From NCBI GenBank assembly GCA_023667265.1, contig JAMPAJ010000001.1:740897-801729 (forward strand): a stretch of 60,833 nucleotides of DNA, given 5' to 3'. Position 1 is the first letter of the stretch. Each line of letters starts with the position of its first letter. The DNA comes from Alistipes sp. Its GTDB lineage: Bacteria > Bacillota > Clostridia > Oscillospirales > Ruminococcaceae. Position numbers and translations under genes: made by a program. Shown one piece after another: positions 32,615 to 60,833 of this stretch. The notes below the pieces were generated by a model that saw only the letters and a list, made by a program, of their open reading frames with translations, did no database searches and was not told where the DNA came from.

Positions 32615-32677
32615 CATATATAAGGTTTAACCAAATATATTCTGAAAATTGATTTCCGTGAATTTGTTCCGCGTGGG

Positions 32678-32706
32678 TTGCAATTTTGCAGTTTATATGA
32701 TATAAT
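32678..32706 (+). promoter_or_regulatory. Promoter of the GH95-GH26 operon
   Basis: TTGCAA and TATAAT are separated by 17 nt. The sequence from -35 to -10 is nearly the same as in the YfhO promoter at 41083 (TTGCAATTTT, CAG, TTATATG). Confidence 0.85.
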
Positions 32707-40817: not shown

Positions 40818-40997
40818 TTGCACGCTCCTATAATTTGTTTCTACATTTACTATTATAAACGATTTTTAACAATACGTCAATAATATTTCCAAATTTCTTC
40901 AATATTTTTCTGAATTTTCTCTCTGAGCAAAAAAATTCCCTGAATCCTTGCAAAAACATTATATATCGTATAAGCAGCGAGCCGCTGCCGGCGATTT

Positions 40998-41082
40998 CGC
41001 GGTGGGGCAGCCCCCACGGGCAATTCACGTGACTGTTCATTCCTCACTGATTTATTATCAGACAAAATTTTCTACGCGGCTG
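40998..41082 (+). repeat. CACGTG switch-like module, single copy upstream of the YfhO gene (family 3)
   Basis: GTGGGG (41002) is followed by CCCCAC (41012), CACGTG (41026) and CCTCAC (41042). Both C-rich hexamers can pair with the first arm. Similarity to the units at 60403-60833 continues through GCGGCTGTTGC into the promoter at 41083. The 408-bp gap 40818-41225 holds only this module, the promoter and leader hairpins; a weaker TATAAG box at about 40969 precedes the module. Confidence 0.65.
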
Positions 41083-41111
41083 TTGCAATTTTCCAGGTTA
41101 TATGGTATAAT
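41083..41111 (+). promoter_or_regulatory. Promoter of the YfhO-family gene
   Basis: TTGCAA and TATAAT are separated by 17 nt. The start site would be near 41118, so the ATG at 41115 cannot be the start codon. Confidence 0.85.
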
Positions 41112-52102: not shown

Positions 52103-52296
52103 AAACACCGGGTTTCAAAAGGGGCAATGACCCTTTTGCGAAGTCCAGAGGCAGAGCCTCTGGCGAGGTATGGAGCAGAGCTCCATATCGACGGAACGTC
52201 GATGATGCCTTTAGGCGCTCCGCAAAGGGTGAATTTTGTAACAGTCCGGTGGACTGTTACAAAAGAGGGAACGCCCTGCAAGAGAGGGCGTTCCCT
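52103..52296 (-). repeat. Multi-hairpin repeat, copy B (family 2, inverted)
   Basis: The same six-hairpin element as at 13295, read in the opposite direction: CAAAAGGGGC/GACCCTTTTG, CCAGAGGC/GCCTCTGG, TGGAGC/GCTCCA, ATCGAC/GTCGAT, TAACAGTCC/GGACTGTTA and GGGAACGCCCT/AGGGCGTTCCC. Several stems differ from copy A by paired changes. It begins 8 bp after the thrS stop. Confidence 0.85.
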
Positions 52297-52297
52297 T

Positions 52298-52343
52298 GTG
52301 GGGCTGCCCCCACGAGCGATTCACGTGACCGTTCGTACCCCAC
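52298..52343 (+). repeat. CACGTG switch-like element beside copy B (family 3)
   Basis: GTGGGG (52298), CCCCAC (52308), CACGTG (52322) and a second CCCCAC (52338) have the same spacing as at 41002. It directly adjoins the multi-hairpin repeat. A TATAAT box lies at 52380-52385, but its -35 is poor. Confidence 0.65.
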
Positions 52344-52388
52344 TAATATTTTGTGCTGACGTAGATATGCCGCGAGCGATATAATTTT

Positions 52389-52417
52389 CCTCCCCAAATA
52401 AAAGGGGAGGATTTTTT
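52389..52417 (+). terminator. Terminator downstream of thrS
   Basis: CCTCCCC and GGGGAGG with the loop AAATAAAA are followed by ATTTTTT. It ends transcripts that read through copy B. Confidence 0.88.
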
Positions 52418-52449
52418 CTGTTTTTTTGAATTTGCAGTGAAAATATTAG

Positions 52450-52642
52450 GGGACGCTCTCTCTTGCAGAGCGTCCCCTCTTTCAAAACAGTCCACTGGAC
52501 TGTTTTGAAATTCACCCCTTGCAGGGCGCCTAAAGTATATCATTGACCTACGGTCAATATGGGACTCTGTCCCATACCCTGCCAAAGGCGTCGCCTCTGG
52601 ACACTACCAAAGGAGCATTGCCCCTTTGGAAACCCGGTGTTG
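52450..52642 (+). repeat. Multi-hairpin repeat, copy C (family 2)
   Basis: Same order and direction as copy A. The stems are GGGACGCTCT/AGAGCGTCCC, TTCAAAACAGTCC/GGACTGTTTTGAA, ATTGACC/GGTCAAT, TGGGAC/GTCCCA, CCAAAGGC/GCCTCTGG and CCAAAGGAGC/GCCCCTTTGG. It lies 26 bp beyond the stop of the minus-strand glycosyltransferase gene. Confidence 0.85.
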
Positions 52643-59955: not shown

Positions 59956-60297
59956 TTACAGCCCGAAGCTGATAGAAAGCGCGGTATTCACCTTGTCCAT
60001 GGAGTTGAGGTCGAGCTCTCCCATTTTTTCGCCGAGCCGCTTTTTGTCGATAGTGCGTATCTGCTCCAGAAGGACGATGCTGTCCCTGGTGAGACCGCAG
60101 TTATCCGCTTTCACCTCGATATGTGTGGGAAGGCGGCTTTTGTCGTGACGGCTCGTTATAGCTGCGGCGATGACTGTGGGACTGTGCCTGTTTCCAACGT
60201 CGTTCTGGACGATAAGTACCGGACGTACTCCGCCCTGTTCCGAACCTACAACAGGGCTGAGGTCGGCGTAATATATTTCTCCTCTTTTAACGGACAT
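59956..60297 (-). CDS. mazF: MazF/EndoA-type mRNA interferase toxin
   Basis: The 113 residues match PemK/MazF toxins, which cut single-stranded mRNA at short motifs: KRGEIYYADLSPVVGSEQGGVRPVLIVQND over the first two strands (in order), VIAAAITSR and LLEQIRTIDKKRL. AAAGGAG precedes the ATG. In most genomes a small antitoxin gene lies directly upstream; here the 105 bp upstream hold no open frame and then a tandem array begins. The antitoxin must be elsewhere or lost. Confidence 0.94.
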   Translation of the reverse strand: MSVKRGEIYYADLSPVVGSEQGGVRPVLIVQNDVGNRHSPTVIAAAITSRHDKSRLPTHIEVKADNCGLTRDSIVLLEQIRTIDKKRLGEKMGELDLNSMDKVNTALSISFGL

Positions 60298-60402: not shown

Positions 60403-60833
60403 GGCGGGCCCCGCCGACAATTCACGTGACCGCGAGTACCTCGCTTATTTTTTTTGTAAAGAAAATTATTTCCGCGGCTGTTGCTTTTTTGCAGACAATG
60501 TGCTATAAGCGGGGAGTCCCCGCCGACAATTCACGTGACCGCGAGTACCTCGCTTGTTTTTTGTAAATAAAATTATTTCCGCGGCTGTTGCCTTTTTGCA
60601 GACAATGTGCTATAAGCGGAGAGTCCCCGCCGACAATTCACGTGACCGCGAGTACCTCGCTTATTTTTTTTGTAAAGAAAATTATTTCCGCGGCTGTTGC
60701 TTTTTTGCAGACAATGTGCTATAAGCGGGGAGTCCCCGCCGACAATTCACGTGACCGCGAGTACCTCGCTTATTTTTTTTGTAAAGAAAATTATTTCCGC
60801 GGCTGTTGCTTTTTTGCAGACAATGTGCTATAA
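60403..60833 (+). repeat. Tandem array of 107-109-bp promoter/hairpin units (family 3)
   Basis: Four units begin at about 60409, 60518, 60625 and 60734 (steps of 109, 107 and 109 bp); the last is cut by the window end. Each carries a GC-rich palindrome (GCGGGGAGTCCCCGC), AATTCACGTGACC, a short stem GCGAG/CTCGC followed by a T-run, and a promoter-like TTGCTT or TTGCCT with TATAAG 17 nt later. Units are nearly identical, so the array is recent or kept uniform. No coding function is credible, because the 109-bp step shifts the frame in each unit. Confidence 0.85.

Follow-up and report, generated by a model that had tools for sequence, protein, structure and literature searches.

A tandem promoter array at ldh as a probable local amplification of a dispersed, hairpin-headed Ruminococcus repeat

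Introduction

REP and REPIN sequences are short imperfect palindromes that occur in many copies, often at gene ends, in association with RAYT (Y1-type) transposases, and IS200/IS605-derived elements transpose as single strands without target duplication and possess subterminal hairpins. Putative mobile promoters form a class that its founding studies, reportedly those of Matus-Garcia et al. 2012 and van Passel et al. 2014, are said to have defined by sequence reuse alone. In excerpts of other reports, they appear as near-identical promoter-bearing sequences of about 50-150 bp located before unrelated genes (cited in PMC8049555, PMC4596501). The BrickBuilt MITEs of Porphyromonas gingivalis are, in the excerpted description, dispersed elements with internal tandem repeats that vary between strains, and were proposed to be mobile promoters; their repeats measure 23 nt and lie inside the MITE, whereas the tandem unit reported here is the whole promoter-bearing element (PMC4596501).

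By analogy, the closest known system in action is that of the Correia elements (CREE) of Neisseria. According to the excerpted account, CREE of the 'Black promoter' type are short non-coding repeats of about 100-150 bp, present in about 120-250 copies per genome, many of them 5' of genes; the end nearer the gene supplies a -35 and part of a -10, which insertion completes, the elements are bounded by terminal inverted repeats, and the duplicated target is mostly TA (PMC2649163). Here, we describe an array of promoter-bearing units upstream of ldh in a genome deposited as Alistipes sp. (G000), together with the repeat family to which it belongs. A narrow open-access literature search returned, by title, no description of such a Ruminococcus repeat, which we do not take as absence from print.

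Results

The array lies at the right end of the analysed window, a stretch of 60,833 nucleotides (contig JAMPAJ010000001.1). Sequence reading placed it at 60403-60833 with a period of 107-109 bp, and TRF reported a tandem array at 60409-60833 (period 109, 3.9 copies, 96% matches, score 808, the highest among five TRF rows in the window), confirming the four near-identical units of 107-109 bp, and their coordinates, that a sequence-only reading had proposed. In each unit, a palindrome is followed by AATTCACGTGACC, by a GCGAG/CTCGC stem and its T-run, and by TTGCTT (or TTGCCT)-17-TATAA; CACGTG and the GCGAG-TAC-CTCGC stem with its T-run are present in all four, and all units lie on the forward strand.

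Unit 1 (60403-60508; from sequence, TRF and the terminator scan) comprises a truncated palindrome (60403-60415), CACGTG (60423-60428), a terminator-like stem (60432-60444) and a promoter with TTGCTT at 60481-60486, a 17-nt spacer and TATAA at 60504-60508. Unit 2 (107 bp, 60509-60615; from sequence) begins at a TATAA/GCGG junction with the hairpin GCGGGGAGTCCCCGC (60509-60523), followed by CACGTG (60532-60537), the stem (60541-60553), TTGCCT (60588-60593) and TATAA (60611-60615). Unit 3 (109 bp, 60616-60724; from sequence and TRF) carries the hairpin GCGGAGAGTCCCCGC (60616-60630), CACGTG (60639-60644), the stem (60648-60660), TTGCTT (60697-60702) and TATAA (60720-60724), and unit 4 (109 bp, 60725-60833; from sequence) has its hairpin at 60725-60739, CACGTG at 60748-60753, the stem at 60757-60769, TTGCTT at 60806-60811 and TATAA at 60829-60833. 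The truncated first palindrome has no TATAA before it; its loop region is lost and GGCGGGCCCCGCC remains. The first copies at metG and in a congener genome (G077) likewise look shortened.

A strict sigma-70 scan did not call the array promoters, since TTGCTT fits TTGACA poorly, and found a single site, on the opposite strand. The putative array promoters are instead supported by a TG-extended -10, by conservation throughout the genome and by their position ahead of genes.

The sequence-only reading had the array running off the right edge of the window. It does end in the fourth TATAA, but the edge meets a 100-N scaffold gap (L021 531-630), beyond which come a last half-unit ending in TATAAT, TATAATATAATATG and, 72 nt past the TATAA, the start of ldh. 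This gene (G000:C11:801957-802913, outside the window) encodes a lactate/malate dehydrogenase-type protein of 318 codons with Pfam Ldh_1_N and Ldh_1_C domains, and a HydF-like GTPase gene, identified by reading, lies 3' of it. Given the four units in the window and the half-unit past the gap, at least five promoters face ldh. Of the three readings proposed from the sequence alone, the evidence supports that of an array of promoters directed at the next gene past the window edge: it ends in a TATAAT 72 nt ahead of ldh, and relatives carry a single promoter at this position. The divergent left neighbour is a PemK/MazF-like toxin gene (59956-60297, reverse strand; PF02452, E 2.8e-36), and reading of the flank in a sister genome, G018, shows this neighbourhood left of ldh there as well. 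That the array is an assembly artefact at a scaffold end, as its contact with the gap might indicate, is most improbable: the units are not identical, as copies of one contig end would be expected to be, the register is kept across the gap, and the same kind of array occurs mid-contig elsewhere and in other species.

A genome-wide search, which the earlier reading had recommended making with one unit, was run with the array DNA and yielded 46 dispersed matches in G000, revealing a repeat family. Models were built from 36 promoter and 36 hairpin stretches, drawn from 0.4 Mb of contig C11 and the window, together 460 kb, and from further loci. At E<=1e-3, the 44-nt promoter model gave at least 131 matches in the genome (150 of 2,104 candidates scored) and the 28-nt hairpin model at least 91 (150 of 1,515 candidates scored); at E<=10, these numbers were at least 148 and 142, respectively. 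The 131 promoter matches listed form at least 98 clusters. The hairpin retains pairing through two-sided change (22 such cells versus 5.3 in shuffles), in a set preselected at >=5/6 pairs, which biases the percentage paired and does not force the variety of pair types.

The usual unit measures 92-94 bp. It opens with a hairpin that has a 6-bp stem (GCGGnn-AGC-nnCCGC), continues with the conserved foot YGGCAATTTCGCG and an AT-rich middle part, and closes with TTCCGCG and TTGCAA-17-TATAA. Its architecture is fixed: 25 of the 31 promoter-promoter distances below 300 bp equal 92-94 bp, and 25 of the 91 listed hairpins start exactly 0 nt past a promoter TATAA, with none at 1-3 nt. A same-strand promoter follows within 250 bp downstream in 52/91 hairpins, and an opposite-strand promoter lies within 250 bp of one. 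Among 67 promoter matches in the loci examined, the base after TATAA is T in 49, and a new hairpin follows in 18 (17 called and one GCAG variant). As in the excerpted account of CREE, the unit therefore has a -35 and an incomplete, TATAA end; unlike those elements, it is headed by a hairpin and commonly forms head-to-tail arrays at exact spacing (PMC2649163). Nor were terminal inverted repeats such as those of CREE found (PMC2649163): the end-to-end inverted score of 20 units averaged 3.75-4.00 versus 3.22-3.72 when shuffled, with 3.0 for the ldh unit.

Terminal promoters of the family mostly precede genes. A ribosome-binding site and an open reading frame of >=80 aa were found within 300 nt downstream of 41 of the 50 terminal promoters (one of the 50 is the GCAG variant and actually internal), compared with 146 among 449 other TATAAT sites; for 15 of the 50, an open reading frame also starts on the upstream side. 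One unit site (L118) follows a gene end rather than a promoter. In this placement of similar promoters at unrelated genes, across the clusters described above, the family resembles putative mobile promoters as that class is reportedly defined.

A second dispersed module shares the hairpin and continues with a foot YGGCRATTCACGTGACC and a GCGAG/CTCGC-like stem. This CACGTG module occurs in 31 copies beyond the array in the loci examined, some of them directly after stop codons, and 17 of the 31 are terminator-like. The two modules are distinct: CACGTG is found in 0/20 units of 92-94 bp, and a terminator-like stem in 1/20. The ldh unit is a hybrid in which the CACGTG module precedes the family promoter. 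Over its -10 part it has AATGTGnTATAA, the sequence also seen in the native G018 ldh promoter, whereas other family copies mostly have TATATGnTATAA. We infer that the element became linked to the -10 of the original ldh promoter and was afterwards amplified locally.

Both modules recur within the window on the forward strand. At 40974-41110, TATAA is followed directly by a hairpin, a second hairpin, a CACGTGAC module and a family promoter ending in TATAAT before a gene; a single family promoter without a preceding hairpin unit, also ending in TATAAT before a gene, lies at 32662-32705; and a diverged hairpin with a CACGTGAC module and no family promoter lies at 52302-52374 (nhmmer E 0.001). A second, longer dispersed repeat, AAAGGGACGGTTGTCCCTTTT...CAGAGGCAGAGCCTCTGG...GGGGTGAATT..., adjoins the CACGTG module at about 52130-52500 in the window and at L005, L014 and L015. 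The hairpin-foot core was seen in one IMG/VR contig (L320 3813-3831), and named genomes scanned for the exact pattern gave no match to the CACGTG core.

The separation of the modules bears on two readings of the array's purpose that had been raised from its sequence. In the form considered here, the first holds that each unit is a small-RNA gene whose product, stable and about 49 nt long, stops at the GCGAG/CTCGC stem and T-run, the number of units setting the dose. The terminator scan found four array stems in L021 60-800 versus 1.0 +/- 1.1 in shuffles, and terminator-like stems recur in more than half of the CACGTG-module copies outside the array, as counted above. Assuming a start about 7 nt past the -10, the predicted inner-unit RNA spans about 49 nt (60732-60780), and its fold is slightly more stable than those of shuffled sequences (-8.3 kcal/mol, z -2.01). 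The earlier proposal of a short RNA of about 50-60 nt per unit holds with respect to the stem and T-run, but the predicted start falls within the palindrome, so that the RNA would be about 49 nt and lack that hairpin. Against an RNA as the purpose of the array stand this start inside the palindrome, the near-absence of terminator-like stems from the 92-94 bp units, and the four-promoter array of the congener genome G062, which has no such stems between promoters on the array strand. An Rfam search of the window at gathering scores found three tRNAs only, with neither the array nor the other window copies matching a family. Overall, we regard the small-RNA reading as unlikely.

The second reading, extended here from decoys to operators, holds that the CACGTG sites bind a regulator, either titrating it or controlling ldh. 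Every array unit indeed contains CACGTG, and AATTCACGTGAC is well conserved in the 31 other module copies of the loci examined and in a G018 copy (L044). Yet the motif belongs to a separately dispersed module, is missing from all 20 units of 92-94 bp and, by reading, from 15 listed units of other species, and the module often sits at gene ends without a nearby promoter (L005, L014), for which a REP-like spread is better suited than an operator. A decoy or operator role is accordingly very improbable. The CACGTG module resembles REP/REPIN in being a short imperfect palindrome in many copies, often at gene ends. By contrast, the promoter unit forms direct repeats rather than paired inverted hairpins.

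The closest ldh relatives are all named Ruminococcus, the nearest being JAGBGT010000008.1 with 97% identity over ldh. The ldh of G018 has a single promoter and no array, and none of the ldh stretches examined, from 14 of the 53 named ldh loci and 4 of the 30 genome loci, shows one. We extended the comparison to the 23 tandem sites of G000, seven of which have an ortholog in the 1,226,704 G018 bases compared; one of the 23, L035, was placed about 15 nt off and gave no match. At all seven, G018 lacks the hairpin unit and has TATAAT at the unit's right edge, with BLAST homology resuming 1-28 nt downstream, in line with the -10 completion reported for CREE (PMC2649163, in excerpt). Presence and absence at orthologous genes is also a trait that, by the reported definition, the family shares with putative mobile promoters. 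At L097 and L117, the upstream G000 promoter reads as the ortholog of the native G018 promoter, so that the unit has the look of a clean insertion that separated TATAA from its T. At four other sites (L006, L019, L068 and L099), the native G018 -35 region is unrecognisable in G000; replacement is there as possible as clean insertion, and later decay is a further possibility. In a wider set of 15 sites, 10 showed a G018 TATAAT in line with the -10 of the family, as did L089 by eye; the exceptions were L004 (TAAAAT), L022 (shifted), and L012 and L016 (not aligned). A MITE-like repeat with ends GGCAACACCGCACAAAGA and TCTGTGCGGTGTTGCC was also seen at promoters, its presence differing between the sister genomes (G018 L255, L275, L305; G000 L012).

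The junctions were further examined for traces of target duplication. In the 23 promoter pairs that flank one unit, the base before TATAA is common to 83% versus 30% with permuted partners. In the 14 pairs below 85% identity, it is common to 79% (11/14, differing in 3/14) versus 31% (0/10,000 permutations), and these diverged pairs show no clear excess over permuted partners at -18..-11 (0.64 versus 0.59), nor at -28..-19 or -44..-29. As the TATG ahead of that base is conserved everywhere, a duplicated stretch would be at least 6 and at most about 10 bp, and the shared base looks like a 6-10 bp target duplication ending in TATAA. Such a duplication, including NTATAA, would be longer than the TA given for CREE in the excerpted source (PMC2649163). 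A long target duplication of the whole 28-nt promoter was considered and rejected, given the lack of within-pair excess at -28..-19. Set against the traits of IS200/IS605 elements, the unit has both a hairpin at its left end and this duplication-like signal.

In 9 of the 23 pairs, the flanking copies are at least 85% identical over 44 nt, and such near-identical pairs, for example at ldh, point to later local duplication. A plain tandem duplication of the ldh promoter by slippage or recombination, with no mobile element and with likeness elsewhere reflecting a shared promoter style, would account for these pairs and for the retention of AATGTGnTATAA, the native sister sequence. It would not account for a hairpin-first unit at many unrelated genes, for a 0-nt junction in 25 of 25 adjacent cases, or for the absence of the unit from G018 at every comparable site, and we consider it quite improbable. 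Amplification of a dispersed element thus remains the preferred reading of the array.

Among 100 genomes of the genus, including G000, promoter-model matches were present in 76 and hairpin-model matches in 45 at E<=1e-3. Native ldh promoters of kin also show TTGCnATTTT...TGnTATAAT, and TTGCnATTTT and TGnTATAAT are partly a general promoter style of the genus; because of this shared style, the promoter-model matches in other species overstate kinship, and the notion that all promoter matches are mobile was rejected. Head-to-tail units with TATAA directly followed by the GC hairpin occur in G114, G062, G010, G068, G112, G111, G083, G098 and G123, while the junction is TATA in G009 and ATGA in G077, at a gene end instead of a promoter, in a listing with rows from 11 of 16 loci that was prefiltered for ATAA, TATA or ATGA before the hairpin. 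Unfiltered, in loci outside G000, TATAA precedes 12 of 35 hairpins and CACCA, the tRNA gene end, 6 of 35. Hairpins of congeners lie directly 3' of the CCA end of tRNA genes (L044, L050 and others), and L004 lies near a tRNA. In L155 (G077:C12:63024 region), three head-to-tail hairpin units, the first shortened, occupy about 1455-1690 at a gene 3' end, where the repeated tail is not a promoter.

No Y1/RAYT transposase (PF01797) was found in G000 at E<=1e-3 or at E<=10, in a genome that is 96.3% complete, so that its absence is not certain; no mobilising transposase was identified for the promoter repeat in G000. In this respect, the family again departs from REP/REPIN, and the comparison with IS200/IS605 elements stays mixed. 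A Y1 transposase is present in 37 of the 100 genus genomes, and three congeners (G099:C55:9019, G034:C12:9116, G094:C71:6793) have weak Y1_Tnp-like frames, 184-219 aa long, at a distance of a few kb from ldh.

Discussion

In summary, the array at ldh probably arose when a dispersed Ruminococcus repeat, headed by a hairpin and carrying a promoter, was amplified locally in tandem. Fixed architecture, the -10 junction, empty sites in the sister genome and tandem arrays across the genus take this repeat beyond the likenesses by which putative mobile promoters are recognised. The array, the family, its junctions and the sister-site comparison are direct observations; from them, we infer that the units are transcribed and mobile, and that their route was insertion with a 6-10 bp duplication followed by unequal recombination.

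The proposed mechanism is as follows. A unit would land directly after the TATAA of an existing promoter, its own right end being TATAA, and the landing would duplicate the -10 end of the target promoter. The leftover T would re-complete TATAAT, and the downstream gene would therefore keep its -10 in place while the element's right end supplies a new -35. The gene would in this way gain a new upstream promoter half, and repeated copies would generate promoter arrays. At ldh, the element would have been joined to the native -10 and subsequently amplified on site. The last copy most likely drives ldh mRNA, since the inner promoters each precede a terminator-like stem. Transcripts from these inner promoters would be short and end at the next T-run, so that the inner promoters are more likely to be by-products or to serve fine-tuning than to be the source of ldh mRNA.

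On a broader proposition we are evenly divided, namely that the family constitutes an undescribed class of miniature mobile element: hairpin-headed and without terminal inverted repeats, it would take the -10 box as its target with a duplication of about 6-10 bp ending in TATAA, spare the promoter and add a -35, would have rewired about 100 promoters in one genome, and would form tandem promoter arrays, such as the one at ldh, in which the number of copies could tune expression.

An insertion close to a gene usually breaks or blurs its regulation. If the proposition is true, a repeat that targets the -10 and rebuilds the box on both sides would amount to a nearly harmless promoter swap, and would offer a clean system for studying how promoters spread and turn over. 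The size of the family and its differences between sister species would allow the replacement of promoters, and the consequences for expression, to be compared gene by gene. With its array, ldh is an example of a gene, central to fermentation in a gut bacterium, for which the number of promoters may vary.
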